A stretch of 64,000 bases of DNA from Rufibacter immobilis (GCF_003721565.1 NZ_RJJE01000017.1:1104636-1168635), one strand, 5' to 3'. Shown: positions 10,171 to 61,007, counted from the first letter of the stretch. Translations and numbers: made by a program. Notes: generated by a model from the sequence alone, not told the origin.

Positions 10171-10392
10171 TCCTGCCAAAAGATGCCCCGGAAGCTGTAA
10201 AACCGTACAAATTCCTTTTTGACTTTCCCCCCCTAGCCCTTACATTCGGCTTTTGGTGATCTTGTGGGGGCGAAGCCGGTATTCACTAAAAGAAAGCAGG
10301 TTCCTTCTTCCCCCACTCCCCGCACCGGTTTACGCTTTACCAGATCAAAAGCCGATGCTGCCGGCCCTGGCCGCATTGGTTTGCCTACGTTC

Positions 10393-13335
10393 ATGAACCC
10401 AGAGAAATTACAGTACCTTGCCCAGAAGCTGGAAGGAGAGCTCCACTTTGACAACACCATGCGCACCCTCTACGCCACCGATGCCTCGGCGTACCGGGAG
10501 GTGCCCCTTGCCGTCGCGTTTCCTGCCTCGGTACAGGACATCAAGACCCTGATTCAGTTTGCCCGGCTGGAAGGCACATCGCTGATTCCGCGTACGGCGG
10601 GGACGTCGTTGGCGGGCCAGGTAGTGGGAGCTGGCATTGTGGTGGATGTGTCCAGGACGTTTACCAAGATTCTGGAGGTAAACCCTGAGGAAGGTTGGGT
10701 GCGGGTGGAGCCGGGCGTGATACGGGATGAGCTGAATATGTTTCTGCGGCAGCATGGCCTGTACTTCGGGCCAGAGACGTCTACCGCTAACCGCGCCATG
10801 ATTGGCGGGATGGTGGGCAACAACTCCTGCGGGTCTAACTCTATTGTGTACGGCAGCGCGCGGGAACACTTGCTGAGCGTGAAGGCCCTACTGAGCGATG
10901 GCACGGAGGCGGAATTCGGGGCGCTGACCCTGGAAGAATTTGAGGCCAAATGCCGCGGTGAGAATACCAGTGGCGACTTAGAGACGCGCATTTACCAGGC
11001 CACCAAGGCCATGCTGAGCCACGTGCCTACGCAGGAGAACATCCGCGCGGAGTTTCCGAAACCCAGCATCCAGCGCCGGAACACCGGGTATGCCATTGAC
11101 CTGCTGTTGGAGACCGAGCCGTTTACCCAAGGCAAAGAGCCGTTCAACTTCTGTAAACTGATTGCCGGTTCAGAGGGTACACTGGCGTTCCTTACGGAGA
11201 TCAAACTGCACGCAGACCCGCTTCCGCCAAAGGAAATTGGCTTGCTGTGTATCCACTGCGAAACCGTAGATGAATCGCTGCGGGCGAATTTGGTGGCGCT
11301 GCGCCATAACCCAAGTGCAAGTGAGCTCATGGACCACTACGTGCTGGAGTGTACTAAAACCAACATTGAGCAGAGCCAGAACCGCTTTTTCGTGAAAGGT
11401 GACCCGGGCGCTATTCTGGTGGTGGAATTCACCGACCATACCCAGGCCGCTATTCAGGAGCGGGCCGATGCACTGATCAAAGACTTAGAAGAAAATAAAC
11501 TGGGTTACCACTATCCGCTGGTACTGGGCACCGACACCAAGAAAGTCTGGACGCTCAGAAAAGCGGGCCTCGGGTTGTTGTCTAACATCCCCGGAGATGC
11601 CAAACCAGTGGCGGTGATTGAAGATACGGCGGTAGATGTGGCAGACCTGCCAGAGTTCATCCGGGAGTTTAACCTCACGCTGGAGCAGTACGGCTTGTAC
11701 TGCGTGCACTATGCCCACGCGGGCACCGGAGAGCTGCACCTGCGGCCTATCATTGACCTGAAGACCGAGGAAGGCAATAAGCTGTTCCGGGACATTGCCA
11801 CCGAGATTGCCCACCTGGTGAAGAAGTACCGCGGCTCTCTGAGCGGCGAGCACGGCGATGGCCGTCTGCGCGGCGAGTTTATCCCGTTCATGATTGGCGA
11901 GGAAAACTACAAGCTGCTGGAAGAAGTGAAGCGCGTGTGGGACCCGGGCAACATCTTCAACCCGGGCAAGATTGTGAACACGCCGTCTATGAACACCTTC
12001 CTGCGCTATGAGCCAGGACAGGAGACCCCAGAGTTTGACACGGTGTTCAAGTTCAGCCAGGCGGGGGGCGTGCTCAGAGCCGCTGAGCTTTGCAACGGCT
12101 CCGGCGACTGTCGCAAAACGCATCTCACCGGCGGTACCATGTGCCCTAGCTATATGGTGACCCGCAATGAGAAAGACACAACCCGCGGACGAGCCAACGT
12201 GATGCGCGAGTTCCTGACCCGCTCGCCTAAAGCCAACCGCTTTGACCACCATGAAATCAAAGATGCCATGGATCTGTGCCTTTCCTGCAAAGGCTGCAAG
12301 TCTGAGTGCCCTTCTAACGTAGACGTAGCCAAGCTGAAAGCCGAGTTCCTGCAGCATTACTATGATGCCAACGGCGTTCCGTTCCGGACGCGCCTCATCT
12401 CTAATTTCAACAACGCAAACAAACTGGCGGCACTCCTGCCGGGTGCCTACAACCTGCTCTTCAAAAACGATTTCACGGCCAAAGCCTTCAAGAAAGCCGT
12501 AGGGTTCGCGCCGGAGCGCACCTTGCCGCTGCTGCATAAAACCACGCTGCGCAGCTGGTTTAAGAAGCACCAGAAAGAGAAACTGAAAGAGTGCAAGACC
12601 TTCAAGAAGAAGGTGTACCTGTTCTGCGACGAGTTCACCAACTACAATGACACGCCTATTGGTATCAAAGCGGTGCTGCTGCTGGAGAAGCTGGGCTATG
12701 AGGTAGTGATACCAGAGCACGAAGAAAGCGGCCGTACCTACCTGTCTAAGGGTCTGGTGCGCGATGCCAAGAAACTGGCCCAGAAGAATGTAGCCATGCT
12801 GCACAAACTAATCTCTTCAGAGACGCCGCTCATCGGTATTGAACCCAGCTGTATCCTCTCCTTCCGTGATGAGTACTTGGATCTGGTAGACGAAGACCAA
12901 CTGGAAGACGCCAAAAAGCTTTCCATCCACTGCCTTCAGTTTGATGAGTTTATTGCGCGGGAAATCCTGAACAAGAATATTGAGAAGGATCTTTTCAAAG
13001 ACGAGGCCCGCCTGATTAAACTGCACGGCCACTGCCACCAGAAGGCGCTTTCCAGCGTGCTGTACACCCAGCAGATGCTGAGCTTACCAGCCAACTACAA
13101 GGTGGAAGTCATTCCATCGGGTTGCTGCGGCATGGCCGGCTCCTTCGGGTATGAAGCCGAGCATTACGAGGTCTCCATGAAAGTAGGCGAACTGGTGCTC
13201 TTCCCTACCGTCCGCCAACAACCCGCCGATGTCATCATCGCCGCCCCTGGCACCAGCTGCCGCCACCAAATCCACGACGGCACCGGCAGAGACGCCCAGC
13301 ACCCTATTGAGGTTTTGTATGAAGCGTTGAGGTAA
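10393..13335 (+). CDS. FAD/Fe-S D-2-hydroxyacid dehydrogenase (YdiJ/D-lactate dehydrogenase type)
   Basis: A 980-residue fusion of a GlcD-like flavoprotein and a GlcF-like iron-sulfur protein; the start at 10393 begins MNPEKLQYLAQKLEGELHFD, with no domain upstream. Residues about 40-240 are an FAD_binding_4 domain (TSLAGQVVGAGIVVDVSR, GGMVGNNSCGSNS), about 280-530 the FAD-linked oxidase C domain (HYAHAGTGELHLRP, SGEHGDGRLRGEF), about 566-640 ferredoxin-like cysteines (CNGSGDC, CLSCKGCKSECPSNVDV), and the C-terminus has two CCG-like segments (HGHCHQKAL, PSGCCGMAGSFGYE near 911). Such enzymes oxidise D-lactate, D-2-hydroxyglutarate or glycolate and pass electrons to the respiratory chain. Monocistronic, with a terminator behind it. 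Confidence 0.9.
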   Translation: MNPEKLQYLAQKLEGELHFDNTMRTLYATDASAYREVPLAVAFPASVQDIKTLIQFARLEGTSLIPRTAGTSLAGQVVGAGIVVDVSRTFTKILEVNPEEGWVRVEPGVIRDELNMFLRQHGLYFGPETSTANRAMIGGMVGNNSCGSNSIVYGSAREHLLSVKALLSDGTEAEFGALTLEEFEAKCRGENTSGDLETRIYQATKAMLSHVPTQENIRAEFPKPSIQRRNTGYAIDLLLETEPFTQGKEPFNFCKLIAGSEGTLAFLTEIKLHADPLPPKEIGLLCIHCETVDESLRANLVALRHNPSASELMDHYVLECTKTNIEQSQNRFFVKGDPGAILVVEFTDHTQAAIQERADALIKDLEENKLGYHYPLVLGTDTKKVWTLRKAGLGLLSNIPGDAKPVAVIEDTAVDVADLPEFIREFNLTLEQYGLYCVHYAHAGTGELHLRPIIDLKTEEGNKLFRDIATEIAHLVKKYRGSLSGEHGDGRLRGEFIPFMIGEENYKLLEEVKRVWDPGNIFNPGKIVNTPSMNTFLRYEPGQETPEFDTVFKFSQAGGVLRAAELCNGSGDCRKTHLTGGTMCPSYMVTRNEKDTTRGRANVMREFLTRSPKANRFDHHEIKDAMDLCLSCKGCKSECPSNVDVAKLKAEFLQHYYDANGVPFRTRLISNFNNANKLAALLPGAYNLLFKNDFTAKAFKKAVGFAPERTLPLLHKTTLRSWFKKHQKEKLKECKTFKKKVYLFCDEFTNYNDTPIGIKAVLLLEKLGYEVVIPEHEESGRTYLSKGLVRDAKKLAQKNVAMLHKLISSETPLIGIEPSCILSFRDEYLDLVDEDQLEDAKKLSIHCLQFDEFIAREILNKNIEKDLFKDEARLIKLHGHCHQKALSSVLYTQQMLSLPANYKVEVIPSGCCGMAGSFGYEAEHYEVSMKVGELVLFPTVRQQPADVIIAAPGTSCRHQIHDGTGRDAQHPIEVLYEALR

Positions 13336-13349
13336 TGGGTGGTTATAGT

Positions 13350-13380
13350 AAAAAGGGCTAATTTAGATTTAGCCCTTTTT
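13350..13380 (+). terminator. rho-independent terminator after the FAD/Fe-S dehydrogenase
   Basis: AAAAAGGGCTAA (13350-13361) and TTAGCCCTTTTT (13369-13380) form a 12-bp stem ending in T5. It also marks the left edge of AT-rich island 1. Confidence 0.85.
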
Positions 13381-13456
13381 CATTATTTATAATTCAATTT
13401 AATTGATCAAACTAAAACAAATAAAATTAGAGAACCAACTGGTATTAAATTCAATT

Positions 13457-15328
13457 ATGGAAAGAAGAATTGAAGAGGATATTCCAATTTTAGGCAAAGT
13501 ATATGTTAACTTTGTTAATTTAGCCTCTATAGTTTTTGAATTATATGAAAAAGAGAATGAGATAGCAAGACAAAAAAACATCCCTCACCTTGGCTTAATT
13601 GCTAGAGCATTTAAGGGTGTAAACCACTCTAGATATGAATACCTTATAATACAATGTGTTATTTCAGAATTAGCAGATAATAATTTTAAGGGAACTACAA
13701 GTGCACAGGGTAATATAAAAATAAATGGACAAAGCTATTTTGGAAATGATGTTATTAAAATGTGGTTTCTTCTTTCAAACTTTGGACATTGCAAAAATAC
13801 AGTAGGTGATGAAAAAGCACTTCTTCTAAAGGCAAATCAAAAAAAAGGCTTCAGATCTCAATTAATAAACTCATTAAAGGACGATGAACTTAAGATTTGG
13901 GCTAATAATACAATAGACAATTTTGATTATATTAAGTTTCATCACATTTTATCTATTAGAAGAATATACAAATCTATACCTAGAAAACTTGATATTCAAA
14001 AGAAAATTATATCTGTATATAAATTATTATTACTTGACTCGTCATTAACTACTACAATAGCCAACCAATTACAAGTTGAGCAGTTAAAGATAATTTACAA
14101 TAACATCAGAGACCTTTCTATTCTAGCACTTGACTCTAGAAATTCATCTCTACCTATTTCAATTGATATATTATCAACTGTTCTATCTTTTGATTTTTAT
14201 GAGAACAGATATCAACAAACAAGGGCAAGTCAGATTTTTAATCCTATGATGTCTCTTCTTTACGATACGCTTTATTTAAATATAAAAAGCCAGACACGAC
14301 AAAGGGCATATGAAATTAATGCATTTTCCTCTTTAGAGGACAATATCAATACTTGTATCGAGAGAGCGTTTAATAATGGGCTTGCAAATCCAAATGAATG
14401 TAATCTCACACACTTTTTGCGTATAGAATTGCATATTAATAATGTTGATGAAATTCATATAGGAAAAGCACTTAGAAACTGCTTAACAGTAAAAAGAGGC
14501 ATAAATAATTACGTGGAAGCGTCTTTGGACTTCAATCCTTTCACTTCAATTAGAGTAATAGACTTTTACATAGTAGATAATCACTTTGATGTAAGTCATT
14601 TACCAAAATTCTTAACTAATATAAACGGAATTTTAGAAAACCAGATTAGAGGCACCTTAATAAACTTAATACACAATAAATTACACATATTTGACGGCTT
14701 AAACAAAGGAATAAAAAATATAAGTTTATCTGAAGACAATGAAACAATTCTTCGTGATTCAATATTTGAAAGTATTTCATCTGAATATTTTCAACAAATA
14801 ATAGAAAATAATATACCAGCATTCAGAAATATATTATGGGCAGTCCTTAGATTTCATATAAAAGATAACTACTATTTTGACATAGATCATCACACATCAA
14901 AAGATTATAAATTTTTTGGAGTTAACCGAAACAATGAAGAAGACCTACTTACTATTGAAGTAGATCGTGCAATTTCTACAACTACTAATAATGACAGAAA
15001 ACATGAACTAAAACAATTATTGCAATCAATTAAAAGAAAATTTAAAGGAACCACAATAGCTTGTTTATCTAGAATTACTGTATATGACTATTCCAAATCC
15101 CCAGATAAAAGAAAAGTGACTGATATAGATTCATTAGTCTTAAAATTCAATGAAGATACTATGTTACTTGAATTACATGAATCGAAAAATACTAGAACCC
15201 CTTATCGCGATGCAAAAAAAGATCTAAACCAAAAATTAATTTCCATTCTTAATAAAAATTGTACTGGCTATCGCATTAGAGAAGTAAAAGGATATGGCGC
15301 GAAGCTTATTATTAAACATAACTCCTAA
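13457..15328 (+). CDS. uncharacterised protein with a possible C-terminal PD-(D/E)XK motif (island 1)
   Basis: I do not recognise the family. The frame opens at TTG 13403, but ATG 13457 (MERRIEEDIPILGKVYVN) is the more likely start, giving 623 residues. Strongly AT-rich with AAA/ATA/TTA codons unlike its neighbours. It has no signal peptide or membrane helix. Near the C-terminus KVTDIDSLVLKF followed by LLELHESKNTR has the spacing of a PD-(D/E)XK nuclease core (D, then E-x-K about 17 residues on); this is an inference from the pattern. It is followed 61 bases later by a clearer PD-(D/E)XK gene on the same strand, suggesting a defence or mobile-element module. Confidence 0.7.
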   Translation: MERRIEEDIPILGKVYVNFVNLASIVFELYEKENEIARQKNIPHLGLIARAFKGVNHSRYEYLIIQCVISELADNNFKGTTSAQGNIKINGQSYFGNDVIKMWFLLSNFGHCKNTVGDEKALLLKANQKKGFRSQLINSLKDDELKIWANNTIDNFDYIKFHHILSIRRIYKSIPRKLDIQKKIISVYKLLLLDSSLTTTIANQLQVEQLKIIYNNIRDLSILALDSRNSSLPISIDILSTVLSFDFYENRYQQTRASQIFNPMMSLLYDTLYLNIKSQTRQRAYEINAFSSLEDNINTCIERAFNNGLANPNECNLTHFLRIELHINNVDEIHIGKALRNCLTVKRGINNYVEASLDFNPFTSIRVIDFYIVDNHFDVSHLPKFLTNINGILENQIRGTLINLIHNKLHIFDGLNKGIKNISLSEDNETILRDSIFESISSEYFQQIIENNIPAFRNILWAVLRFHIKDNYYFDIDHHTSKDYKFFGVNRNNEEDLLTIEVDRAISTTTNNDRKHELKQLLQSIKRKFKGTTIACLSRITVYDYSKSPDKRKVTDIDSLVLKFNEDTMLLELHESKNTRTPYRDAKKDLNQKLISILNKNCTGYRIREVKGYGAKLIIKHNS

Positions 15329-15389
15329 TATTGATTTAACTTTATAATCGGAGGCTAGGCATTTTTCGTTATATGAATTTAGTTTAAAC

Positions 15390-16277
15390 ATGAAATTAGT
15401 GCTTGACTGCTATTTAACAGCTATACAGAACAAAAATTATAAATTTCTTTCTATAAACCAAGATATCATTGATGATTGGGCCCTTATTCAAAACGATACA
15501 AATAGGAAATCAATAGTTTCGCATAAATCAGTAGTCTTTTCAATTAGTCAACTTTTTAAAAGAACTACAGCTTACTATAATTTAATTTCATTTGATAACA
15601 TTATATTATGGTATAGAAATGTCCTAACTGATAATGAAAAACATTATAAAGCTGGCCATAATTTTAATATATTCAATCTTCTGAAGGACAAGTTTGGATT
15701 TAGTATACAAGAAACCATGCATAGTAAGCTTTTACAGTTTTTACTAGATACTAATGAAACACATGGTCAAGGCGGGAAATTCCTTTTAGAATTTCTTAAA
15801 ATGTTAAACGTTGAATCTCCTGAAAAAGGAGTTTGGGATGTAACAGCAGAAATTGGTAGAATTGATATTTTAATTACAAGGAAACTTCCACATAGCATTA
15901 TTATAATTGAGAATAAGTCAAATTGGGCTATTGATCAAAAAAACCAATTGTATAGGTATTGGTACAATGCTATATTCTTAAAAACAAAAGAGTATAGCAC
16001 AAGCTTCTATGAAAGAAATGTTAACAATTATAAAATCCTTTATTTAGTTCCAAACACACATAAAGAGCTGGAATATCAAAGCATTTCAAAGCCCAAAGAA
16101 CTCCCATACTCATCATATCATGACCTTCCTGATATAGTACCAATACAAATAACTATAGTGTCTTTTGATGAGCACATTCAAAGATGGTTAACTAACTGTT
16201 TAAGTGTTTTACCTGCAGACAACCATAGGATTAGAGAATATATAATTCAGTATCAACACTTATGCAACAATCTTTAG
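15390..16277 (+). CDS. PD-(D/E)XK nuclease superfamily protein (PDDEXK_4-like)
   Basis: A 295-residue protein with the restriction-endonuclease-like core: FNIFNLLKDKFGFSIQETMH then LLDTNETHGQGGKFLLEFL, E154, GRIDILI with D159, IIIENKSN with E174-x-K176, and the following QKNQLYRYW (Q186, Y190), a Q-x3-Y motif seen in this superfamily. This arrangement matches the PDDEXK_4 group, widespread in accessory and defence-associated loci but with no settled function. AT-rich like the genes on both sides; the next gene starts 10 bases after its stop, implying one transcript. Catalytic activity is inferred from intact motif residues. Confidence 0.8.
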   Translation: MKLVLDCYLTAIQNKNYKFLSINQDIIDDWALIQNDTNRKSIVSHKSVVFSISQLFKRTTAYYNLISFDNIILWYRNVLTDNEKHYKAGHNFNIFNLLKDKFGFSIQETMHSKLLQFLLDTNETHGQGGKFLLEFLKMLNVESPEKGVWDVTAEIGRIDILITRKLPHSIIIIENKSNWAIDQKNQLYRYWYNAIFLKTKEYSTSFYERNVNNYKILYLVPNTHKELEYQSISKPKELPYSSYHDLPDIVPIQITIVSFDEHIQRWLTNCLSVLPADNHRIREYIIQYQHLCNNL

Positions 16278-16287
16278 TTTTAAATAA

Positions 16288-16863
16288 ATGAATGAAGAAC
16301 TTATAATAAGAGCAATGGATCTCTTTGATTCACCTGACAAATGGAATTCTTTTTGCGAGCTAATGAACAGAAATGGAGAAATCCAAAATAGATGGTGGAA
16401 AAAATTACAAACAGAAGTATATCAAAGAGAAAAGAGAAATGGCAATCCTGACTGGGATATAACCATTTGGAATCATTGGGATATGAAATGGAGTATTAGA
16501 AATGAAAACCCTCAAAGCCTTATGATTCACTTCTATGGTGACGCTTTCAGACTTTTTTCAAATGCTGGTTATCTAGACATGTCTAAAGTAGGTGAGTTAT
16601 TGAAAGATCCTAAATTCAGCATATTACAAACTTGTTTTGACAGAATAGATGGAAGCGACTTTCAAACAATTGGCTGGGAATACAGAAATTTTTATTTTGA
16701 CACTGTTTATGATGGTAGATTTCCTGACGCAAGAACATAATCTTGGTATGCAGGTAATAAAACCGCTGAATTTGCAGATCAGTTAATTAATAAGGTAAGA
16801 AAATTTCAAACTCCTGAAATGACTGAATTAATAAAGGAGATAAATATCAAATGCAAAAAATAA
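16288..16863 (+). pseudogene. small partner gene of the PD-(D/E)XK protein, interrupted by an in-frame TAA
   Basis: The frame from ATG 16288 encodes 150 residues (NGNPDWDITIWNHWDMKWSI, SLMIHFYGDAFRLFSNAGY) and meets TAA at 16738-16740. The same frame then continues without a stop for 40 more codons (SWYAGNKTAEFADQLINKV, ...TELIKEINIKCKK) to TAA at 16861-16863, with protein-like composition. Small proteins of this look often accompany PDDEXK_4 genes (from general recognition). The simplest reading is a roughly 191-residue gene broken by a nonsense mutation; a shortened functional protein, stop read-through or a sequencing error are alternatives. Confidence 0.65.
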
Positions 16864-16867
16864 TAAG

Positions 16868-17158
16868 TTGAGCAGCCACATTACGGCATTTGAGCTGTCC
16901 TATTTCTTTGCAGATGAAATGCTCACCGGCGCGTTCAAAAGTTTTAGGCATAAGCACAGGTTTGAGGCCTTAGCCGGAGGGACTACTCACATGATAGATG
17001 TGTTTCACTATACCTCGCCCTTGGGTGTGCTGGGCAAGCTGGCAGATTACCTGTTTCTAAAGCAGTATAGGCCGCACCTGCTTTTGGAGCGGAACCGGGT
17101 AATCAAAGAAGTGGCGGAAAGCGGCAAGTGGCAGGAGGTTCTCGCTATGGAAAAGTAG
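16868..17158 (+). pseudogene. SRPBCC family gene, 5' half missing
   Basis: The 96-residue frame (only a TTG start) matches the C-terminal half of a cyclase/dehydrase-like SRPBCC protein: FRHKHRFEALAGGTTHMIDV followed by FHYTSPLGVLGKLADYLFLK. Full members have about 150-160 residues beginning with a strand-helix segment that is absent here. Base composition switches from AT-rich to the genome norm exactly where this fragment begins, so island 1 seems to have replaced or deleted the 5' part of the gene. It is unlikely to be functional. Confidence 0.7.
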
Positions 17159-17287
17159 GCGGTGCTGTAAGCATCCTGAAAAGTAGAACTGATAGAGATA
17201 GGGGAAAGAAGAACTCCTGACAACCCCACAGGAATTTATCGGTAACAGTTTCTAGAACTTCTATCTAATACCAAAGAAACAGATCTT

Positions 17288-18301
17288 ATGAAAGCAATTG
17301 GATTTAAAACGTCATTACCCATTGAGGAAGCGGATAGCTTTCTTGAGTTTGAAAAAGAAATACCAACTGCGCAAGGAAAAGACATTCTGGTAAAGGTGGA
17401 AGCCATATCGGTCAACCCTGTAGATTATAAAATAAGAAGAAACAGCCTCAAAGACAAGCAACAAGATACCCCGAAGGTCATTGGTTGGGATGCAATAGGT
17501 ACCGTAGAAGCTACCGGCGAGGAGGTGACCCTCTTCCAGAAAGGTGACAGGGTATTATATGCAGGAGACCTTACCAGAGAAGGCTCTAACCAGGAGTATC
17601 AGTTAGTGGATGAACGCATTGTAGGGTTCGCCCCGAAAAACATCAGCATGGAACAAGCTGCCGCCATGCCGCTCACGTCCCTTACGGCCTATGAACTGTT
17701 CTTTGACCATTTTCAATTGAGCAAAGAGAAAGATGCAGGCAAAACCCTTCTTATCATTGGCGGTGCTGGAGGTGTTGGTTCCGTTGCCATCCAACTGGCT
17801 AAAAAGCTGCTGGGGTTAACCGTGATTGCCACTGCATCCAGAGACGTGACCATTGATTGGTGCAAAAAAATGGGGGCAGATCATGTAGTCAACCACACCA
17901 ACCTGGTGAGTGAGGTAAAAAACATCGGCTTTGAACAGGTAGACTTTATTGTAGACTTTGTAGACCTGAATCAATATTGGGAGGCCATAGTAGAACTCAT
18001 TAAACCGCTGGGAAAGGTAGGTTGTATCAGCGACCCGACCGAACCTGTAAGATTACAGCAGCTCAAAAGAAAGAGTGTGAGCTTTTATTGGGAGCTGATG
18101 TTTACGCGCTCTATGTATCAAACCGAAGACATGATACAGCAGCACCACATTCTAAACAAAATTGCGCAACTGCTGGAGGAGGGCATCTTACAACCCACCC
18201 TTCATACCACTATGCAAGGCTTGACCGCCGAAAACCTGAAAGAAGCGCACCGTTTACTGGAAAGCGGCAAAGCCATTGGAAAAGTGGTCCTGAAGTTCTA
18301 A
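17288..18301 (+). CDS. zinc-type alcohol dehydrogenase-like / quinone oxidoreductase family protein
   Basis: A 337-residue medium-chain dehydrogenase/reductase of the NADPH:quinone reductase-like (YogA/ZADH) group. The N-terminal GroES-like domain has ILVKVEAISVNPVDYKIRR and KVIGWDAIGTVEATG; the Rossmann domain has LLIIGGAGGVGSVAIQLAKK. The catalytic zinc cysteines of true alcohol dehydrogenases are absent, which fits NADPH-dependent reduction of quinones or enones. Cytosolic, apparently monocistronic. Substrate not predictable. Confidence 0.9.
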   Translation: MKAIGFKTSLPIEEADSFLEFEKEIPTAQGKDILVKVEAISVNPVDYKIRRNSLKDKQQDTPKVIGWDAIGTVEATGEEVTLFQKGDRVLYAGDLTREGSNQEYQLVDERIVGFAPKNISMEQAAAMPLTSLTAYELFFDHFQLSKEKDAGKTLLIIGGAGGVGSVAIQLAKKLLGLTVIATASRDVTIDWCKKMGADHVVNHTNLVSEVKNIGFEQVDFIVDFVDLNQYWEAIVELIKPLGKVGCISDPTEPVRLQQLKRKSVSFYWELMFTRSMYQTEDMIQQHHILNKIAQLLEEGILQPTLHTTMQGLTAENLKEAHRLLESGKAIGKVVLKF

Positions 18302-59481: not shown

Positions 59482-60618
59482 ATGGAAGAAAAAGTATTTA
59501 TAGCGCCTCGTCTATCTGGACCTCGTTTCGAGGACCATTCTTTGCCTGTAAACATTTTAGAGGACTTTACAGCGCTTGAAGATTTACTTGTAGAAATCGC
59601 AAAAGTCATTTATCTAAATGAAAACGGTAACAGAAAGCGTGTTCCAAAGGGATTTTCTGACGGTATATATTTAAAACTTGTCGACATTGAAGAAGGTAGC
59701 TCTGTTGCGAAATTTGCTATTGCAAGCGCCATTTCATTATCTTCTAGCTTACCCTTAGATAACGCAAACAACTTTACATATTTTGAAAAAGCAAAAGATA
59801 AGATTGTATCAATAATTGAATCTGTAAATAATGGTGATATTCCTAGAGAACCCGACTTGAAACTCTTGTCTTATTTTAACAAGATTGGAAAGAACTTACA
59901 GGATAATGAATCAATTGACTTTGGTTATAATTATATAACTAAAGTAAGTTCAAAAGCTATATTAAACAAGGCAACAAGAAAAAAAATATTGCTTTCAAGC
60001 GAGCAAAAGCAAGAATACACAGATAATATCAAGTTATTTGCTCTCGTTCCTGAGATTAATCAAGCAATTAATACATTCCAATTAGAAACTGAGGCAGGCA
60101 ATATTAAGTGTCCATTAACTGACCAAATAAAGAGTACTGTTTTTACTGCTTTTAATGAATATAAAAGCAGGACATATATATCGCTTAAGGGTACAGCTTT
60201 ATTTAATTGGAATGATAAAATTGTAGAAATTTTAGAAGTCGAGTCAATAGATGTATTAGATCCCCTTGATGTTTTCCTCCGTATTAATAATCTAATTAAA
60301 TTAGAAAATAATTGGTATGAAGGTCAAGGCAAAGCTTTAAACAAGGAAAAGCTTATAAATTTTGGAGACTTTTTTAATTCATATTTTGACAACAAATTAG
60401 CACTTCCTGCGATTTTTCCTACCATTGAAGGCAATATTCAACTTGAATGGAAAAAGGAGAATAAAAATGTAATTGTTGGTATTGAACTGGAAACATTGTC
60501 ATCAAATTTTTTCTACTATAATGACAATGAAGATTCTGATGAAATGGAAAGTCAAATGATATTAAACAATAAGGAAGGTTGGGCGATTTTAAATAGACTT
60601 ATTGCAAAATATCTCTAA
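59482..60618 (+). CDS. uncharacterised protein, first gene of island 2
   Basis: A 378-residue soluble protein, AT-rich and unlike its neighbours. Not assigned to a named family. Visible features: N-terminal APRLSGPRFEDHSLPVNILE, FSDGIYLKLVDIEEGSSVAK (a strand-rich module), and near the C-terminus LPAIFPTIEGNIQLEWKKEN followed by an acidic segment (YYNDNEDSDEMES). The PT-EG-xQLEW pattern recurs in other uncharacterised accessory proteins as I recall them. Its stop overlaps the next ATG by one base (60618), so the two genes form a unit. Possible defence or toxin-type module; no direct evidence. Confidence 0.75.
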   Translation: MEEKVFIAPRLSGPRFEDHSLPVNILEDFTALEDLLVEIAKVIYLNENGNRKRVPKGFSDGIYLKLVDIEEGSSVAKFAIASAISLSSSLPLDNANNFTYFEKAKDKIVSIIESVNNGDIPREPDLKLLSYFNKIGKNLQDNESIDFGYNYITKVSSKAILNKATRKKILLSSEQKQEYTDNIKLFALVPEINQAINTFQLETEAGNIKCPLTDQIKSTVFTAFNEYKSRTYISLKGTALFNWNDKIVEILEVESIDVLDPLDVFLRINNLIKLENNWYEGQGKALNKEKLINFGDFFNSYFDNKLALPAIFPTIEGNIQLEWKKENKNVIVGIELETLSSNFFYYNDNEDSDEMESQMILNNKEGWAILNRLIAKYL

Positions 60619-61007
60619 TGGAAGACAAATTGCTTTTTCACAGACAAATACATCCGACATTTGTGGTCAATGACATAGTCTCATCACAAGCGTTTATTAT
60701 TTCCTCAAAGGCATTTACCCCCTCTGAAAAAGATAATGACCAGTTATCAGTTTACAATGGGGAGAAATTTAGTGCTAGAGATTCTTACGACCACTACTCT
60801 AAGGAATACAATTCTTATGGAGTATTGTCATTATCTAATCCAGAAGTAACATCTACTGAACAAATATCTGTTGTAGATGATAATTTTCCATTTGATGGAC
60901 ATTCTTATATAGACTTTTCAAAAGTTACAAGCAAAAATCAAAAGACAAAGAAAGCAGGAAAACTACGTGATTTTGCAGTAAGTAGAGGTTGGACATATAA
61001 ACCATAA
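60618..61007 (+). CDS. uncharacterised protein, second gene of island 2
   Basis: A 129-residue soluble protein: LLFHRQIHPTFVVNDIVSSQ, SSKAFTPSEKDNDQLSVYNG, SYDHYSKEYNSYGVLSL, DDNFPFDGHSYIDFSKVTS and a basic C-terminal KKAGKLRDFAVSRGWTY. This R-Q-hP-x-h-SSQAF-P-KD-LSVY-G layout recurs in short bacterial proteins of unknown function encoded next to a larger partner, from general recall. Translationally coupled to the 378-residue gene by a one-base overlap. Function unknown. Confidence 0.75.
   Translation: MEDKLLFHRQIHPTFVVNDIVSSQAFIISSKAFTPSEKDNDQLSVYNGEKFSARDSYDHYSKEYNSYGVLSLSNPEVTSTEQISVVDDNFPFDGHSYIDFSKVTSKNQKTKKAGKLRDFAVSRGWTYKP

Follow-up and report, generated by a model that had tools for sequence, protein, structure and literature searches.

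A hotspot island in Rufibacter carrying a predicted SAMHD1-like protein with a replaced metal site and a split PDDEXK_4 nuclease

The AT-rich island at positions 13381–16867 of the Rufibacter immobilis window, i.e., the whole stretch of 64,000 nucleotides that was analysed, is very likely defence cargo lodged in a hotspot of the genus. The gene neighbourhoods support well that it comprises two independent units. One of these is gene 1, for which a pseudo-HD domain of the SAMHD1 type followed by a nuclease domain is the likely architecture; the other is the pair formed by genes 2 and 3, which together resemble a single PDDEXK_4 protein divided into two chains. The reading as a whole, in which exchanged defence cargo carries a ligand-gated nuclease with a dead HD domain next to a split nuclease, is put forward tentatively, with a little less than an even chance of being correct.

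The island has a GC content of 28.9%, whereas 215 equally long segments from the rest of the window average 52.1% (sd 3.9, minimum 40.2%), which bears out the abrupt compositional shift described in the original prediction. The three ORFs of 623, 295, and 150 aa, with 10 bases between the second and the third, are also as described there, as is a terminator at 13380: an intrinsic-terminator-like stem-loop with a T-run, read directly from the sequence, occupies 13350–13380 on the plus strand, 3′ of the left flanking gene. This flank (10264–13335, plus strand; PF02913, PF01565, Fer4) encodes an FAD-oxidase/Fe-S protein and is a core gene of the genus, present in 14 of 16 genus genomes. On the right, at 16868–17158 (plus strand), lies the 5′-truncated remnant of a 165-aa gene that we take to belong to the SRPBCC family; the window retains only its last 96 codons, and this fragment has no Pfam match. 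Homology between the window and seven other Rufibacter genomes ends at the FAD-oxidase stop codon and restarts at 16865–16868, so that the edges of the island coincide with the homology breakpoints in these relatives. No integrase was found within the island. Elsewhere in the window, a second AT-rich insert (59482–61007) encodes a 378-aa protein matching the PADLOC candidate PDC-M32A (3.5e-138), with a 129-aa ORF directly after it.

The slot between the two flanking genes is empty in G005, where the full-length 165-aa gene starts 70 bases after the FAD-oxidase stop; the gene is also full-length in G002, G009, and G011. The empty slot and the 5′-shortened remnant in the window thus indicate that the island was inserted at this site, removing the 5′ part of the downstream gene. 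Other Rufibacter genomes contain different AT-rich cargo in the same slot, comprising a Septu system with AAA and HNH genes in G015 (PtuA, 4.9e-139; PtuB, 7.5e-32), an AAA and HNH pair matching PDC-M01A/B in G003, an FRG-domain protein (PDC-S15) in G002, a GmrSD_N-type protein in G009 (NsnA, 1.9e-31; PD-T4-2_A, 1.1e-20), a DUF4062 protein in G011, a RelA_SpoT protein in G014, and genes without an assigned family in G008. Common flanks, defence cargo that varies among relatives, and a known empty site mark this locus as a hotspot. The known and candidate defence genes that occupy it in other Rufibacter species, together with the empty site, lend good support to the earlier suggestion of defence-island cargo between housekeeping genes. 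Core defence hotspots with interchangeable cargo have been described in Pseudomonas aeruginosa (PMC10250203). The Rufibacter slot resembles these in that fixed core genes surround interchangeable defence cargo; however, it belongs to another phylum, is located between FAD-oxidase and SRPBCC-like genes, and has no integrase. Two of the occupied slots display additional rearrangements. In G009 (L082 1226–1403), the 3′ end of the FAD-oxidase gene is present a second time, between two blocks of cargo, which looks as if insertions had been stacked with duplication of the flank. In G015 (L079 2777–3511), a 245-aa AT-rich gene without a Pfam family truncates the 3′ end of the SRPBCC-like gene, and its VEPDIFI...IIEAK stretch looks PD-(D/E)XK-like.

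The closest holder of the island is G010, another species of the same genus. The window and G010 are 99.8% identical over 13231–17571 (7 differences in 4341 positions), against about 93% in the flanks, which argues that the island moved recently, in an exchange between species; on this comparison of the two sequences, 13231–17571 is a recombination tract that extends into both flanks. We take it that recombination within the flanks passed this cargo between species of Rufibacter. Five of the six coding differences in the tract are protein-changing, among them the gene 3 stop described below, and the differences in the nearby flanks are mostly synonymous. Six coding differences are too few for inferring selection, and they show no sign of strong constraint.

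Gene 1 (13457–15328, plus strand) is read from the ATG at 13457, giving 623 aa; this start is preferred because the homologues begin at the same methionine, and a TTG-extended frame of 641 aa is not supported on the same grounds. No significant match to gene 1 was found in Pfam, NCBIfam, PADLOC, PHROGs, PDB sequences, phage records, or viral contigs. Judged from a predicted model of middling confidence (pLDDT 70.5, pTM 0.59), its main feature would be a SAMHD1-like HD fold with a replaced metal site, which the original prediction did not contain. Residues 2–460 of the model match SAMHD1 and bacterial HD phosphohydrolases with Z up to 17.3 (340 residues, 4.3 Å). Foldseek, which had been proposed as a check on the 623-residue protein, likewise matched SAMHD1-type HD proteins (best E 1.7e-4), and HD phosphohydrolases rank top in the viral library as well; the matches of the model include DNA- and RNA-bound SAMHD1 structures.

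Since helical folds inflate Z, with values of about 14 reachable without a clear relationship, the HD relationship was tested separately by sequence. A profile alignment of nine gene 1 homologues with 18 bacterial HD_assoc_2 (PF19276) proteins scored 38.6 (P 6e-4), compared with at most 21.6 in 60 controls with shuffled or reversed columns. The alignment pairs RQKNIPHLGLIARAFKGVNHSRYEY with RLRRIKQLGLTEFVYPGALHTRFHH, and LLSNFGH of gene 1 with LLHDVGH. The Z of 17.3, from a model of middling confidence, and a profile score above that of all controls thus point to an HD dNTPase fold for residues 1–460 (13457–14836, plus strand). At the positions aligned with the metal ligands of SAMHD1, the His is replaced by Y62 and the HD pair by S107-N108, and an extended alignment tentatively places H162 at the last metal Asp; the H...HD...D ligands of the SAMHD1/dGTPase family are therefore not found at the aligned positions of gene 1. 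None of the nine homologues departs from Y62, S107, and N108, although only 39 of the 623 positions are invariant overall, and H57 and R59 lie near these residues. The invariance of the replacements indicates that the HD site has been rebuilt and conserved and is not decaying. In comparison with SAMHD1/dGTPase-type dNTPases (PDB 2q14, 2hek, 2o6i), gene 1 is alike in the predicted fold of residues 2–460 and in the order of its motifs (RLRxIxQLG-like, HxR, and LLHDxGH-like), but it differs in having Tyr and Ser-Asn at the aligned metal positions and an extra C-terminal domain.

This C-terminal domain (residues 512–623; 14990–15325, plus strand) contains a PD-(D/E)XK-like core with D556, D558, E575, and K577. 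The possible second nuclease core that had been noted in gene 1 stands with respect to its motif, since D558-x16-E575-x-K577 is invariant in nine full-length homologues, and the predicted secondary structure fits; a restriction-endonuclease-like fold of this domain is putative. T555, D556, D558, E575, K577, and D589 are invariant in the homologues aligned, including the distant one of G217, in which ESK is replaced by EGK. The model arranges the domain as a helix (512–526), strands (532–544), strands bearing D556 and D558 (553–564), a strand bearing E575 (568–576), a helix (582–597), and strands (605–622), an order that fits expectation for PD-(D/E)XK. Both the HD and the nuclease folds of gene 1 are predictions, drawn from the model and the profile alignment. 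Sequence searches with the C-terminal domain found no known family, a search of PDB sequences with its profile returned weak, unrelated chains only, and the domain was not found in viral contigs. On the Priestia plasmid pBMG4 (L006 5201–6513), it occurs alone as a 152-aa protein directly after a DUF6602 protein, with D-x16-E-x-K present, and is thus a separable module.

Full-length homologues of gene 1 are encoded by Pontibacter fetidus (75%), Flavobacterium omnivorum (60%), Wenyingzhuangia (58%), Reichenbachiella (56%), Nonlabens (40%), a Peribacillus plasmid (32%), G271, and, more distantly, G217; the family occurs in 4 of 395 sampled phylum genomes, the window's own included. The Peribacillus homologue has PDC-M01A/B as neighbours, the G217 homologue a type IIG R-M enzyme and PDC-S02, the G271 homologue a Fic-type gene, and the Reichenbachiella homologue a serine-resolvase-like gene (read by eye). 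No recognised defence neighbour was found beside the homologues of Pontibacter, Flavobacterium, Wenyingzhuangia, and Nonlabens.

Gene 2 (15390–16277, plus strand), of 295 aa, is a PDDEXK_4 nuclease chain (PF14281, 63 bits against a cut-off of 22.3). Its D159, E174-N-K176, Q186, and Y190 are conserved in pair-type homologues, which confirms the intact PDDEXK_4 core and the catalytic-type residues originally recognised in this gene. The match to PADLOC PDC-S26 (6.8e-33) covers positions 25–210 of 413 only; gene 2 thus corresponds to the N-terminal half of a model that describes a single chain of about 400 aa, and the second half lies in gene 3 (16288–16740, plus strand; 150 aa), which by itself has no family match. 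When both are aligned with 28 full-length PDDEXK_4 proteins, gene 2 falls on columns 5–208 and gene 3 on columns 217–336 of 406, with a score of 36.3 for gene 3 (P 1.2e-4) compared with at most 18.6 in 80 shuffles; a comparison of gene 3 with a smaller set of seven full-length proteins had been marginal (P 0.015). The collinearity of gene 3 with the second half of PDDEXK_4 proteins implies that genes 2 and 3 together represent the single-chain protein divided in two. A fold search with gene 3 gave no convincing match (best Z 5.4), and an McrBC DNA-binding domain was rejected as a candidate, its Z of about 4.5 being too weak to mean anything. None of the papers covered by the literature search mentions PDC-S26 or PF14281. 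At another place on the contig (G000:C10:445737-446252, L093), the window genome also has an undivided PDDEXK_4 protein, a single chain of about 400 aa.

The gene 2/gene 3 pair is also present in G020, G021, and a viral contig, where it is about 33–40% identical and has a second chain of 191–202 aa. It adjoins Druantia-II-type DruE2 and DruM2 in G020; a type IIG enzyme is located near the pair of the viral contig, and a weak DarT match near that of G021. Gene 3 had been described as a small partner of gene 2, and it does follow within 10 bases and travel with gene 2, but it is not intact: a TTA, read as Leu in G010, is TAA in the window (16738–16740). The window protein therefore comprises 150 of the 191 codons of G010 and has lost the last 41 residues, including the conserved LSWYAGN...F region; the untranslated remainder (16741–16863, plus strand) corresponds to codons 152–191 plus the stop of G010. 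Read from its sequence, the window's pair is probably impaired, or the premature TAA may instead be a sequencing error. The pair is thus like known PDDEXK_4/PDC-S26 proteins in the nuclease core of gene 2 and the alignment of gene 3, and unlike these single chains in its distribution over two genes, the second truncated.

We propose that gene 1 acts as a single-protein nuclease, in which a SAMHD1-type HD domain without catalytic metal ligands accompanies a PD-(D/E)XK-like nuclease. With the catalytic metal ligands lost, the HD domain is likely to bind, but not to hydrolyse, a nucleotide or nucleic acid. A ligand arising in phage infection, i.e., an altered dNTP level, a modified dNTP, or a nucleic-acid form, would occupy the dead HD pocket, or else an assembly site, and thereby free the nuclease to cut DNA. 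The genomic context suggests an antiphage function, for which DNA as the target and gating by a ligand would be the means, and gating by a nucleotide is a proposal that may well prove wrong. Genes 2 and 3 would provide a separate PDDEXK_4 nuclease in two chains. It is more doubtful still, though conceivable, that gene 1 represents a new sensor-effector class, in which a dead SAMHD1-type receptor directly switches a fused PD-(D/E)XK nuclease, and phage are sensed via nucleotides and answered by cutting DNA instead of depleting nucleotides. The Clover dNTPase CloA, which nucleotides switch through allosteric sites, works by hydrolysis (PMC12265719); in gene 1, on the contrary, the former hydrolase would be the sensor, and no NTase gene adjoins it as in Clover. 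The literature search found no HD/PD-(D/E)XK fusion in defence, which is weak evidence of novelty since subscription papers were mostly outside the search.

It is equally conceivable that the dead HD fold serves as a scaffold for nucleic-acid binding or assembly. Gene 1 would in that case recognise foreign nucleic acid directly and cleave DNA (or RNA) as a type IV-like or structure-specific nuclease, which is consistent with the DNA- and RNA-bound SAMHD1 structures among its matches and with its conserved nuclease core, and suits the defence context as well as ligand gating does. However, the invariant Y62, S107, and N108, with H57 and R59 nearby, argue for a conserved pocket rather than a surface only, and this explanation is regarded as rather unlikely. 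The same invariant pocket, replacements included, is also compatible with continued catalysis, in which gene 1 would hydrolyse nucleotides at an unusual metal site or without metal, act by depleting them, and carry the C-terminal domain as an accessory; dNTPase defence systems such as Clover exist (PMC12265719). The Tyr and Ser-Asn found in 9 of 9 homologues at the aligned His and His-Asp positions speak against it, and so does a C-terminal core whose expected catalytic positions are all conserved and which stands alone in Priestia, making hydrolysis a very improbable function.

The island might also be decaying, or be a selfish, toxin-like insert, with no present function in the window strain. 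Such a remnant or insert would agree with the premature stop in gene 3, the preponderance of protein-changing differences from the sister species, and the rarity of the gene 1 family, but genes 1 and 2 are intact with their catalytic residues in place, the transfer is recent, and the slot is otherwise occupied by recognised defence systems; loss of function is thus considered improbable. As for the units involved, the original prediction had combined the three genes into one defence module of two nucleases with gene 3 as a partner, while conceding that homologues never found together would refute it. The genes are adjacent, co-directional, and alike in base composition, and they moved in one tract. 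Outside the island shared by the window and G010, the only genomes among those found in which gene 1 adjoins genes 2 and 3, gene 1 nevertheless occurs without the pair in Pontibacter, Flavobacterium, Wenyingzhuangia, Reichenbachiella, Nonlabens, G271, G217, and Peribacillus; conversely, G020, G021, and the viral contig have the pair but not gene 1. Only genes 2 and 3 travel together. Furthermore, gene 3 is broken in the window, whereas gene 1 is intact. A single three-gene module is thus not supported; the gene neighbourhoods already largely refute it, and its probability is very small indeed.

With the island read as two units in a hotspot, the slot offers a ready place to seek more Rufibacter defence genes that have yet to be described, and an intact form of the split nuclease is available from the sister species G010. 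The conserved dead pocket of gene 1 defines a small set of point mutants for direct testing. If the proposed reading is true, gene 1 would combine the antiviral fold of SAMHD1 with a nuclease effector, and a nucleotide-depleting enzyme would have become a nucleotide sensor.
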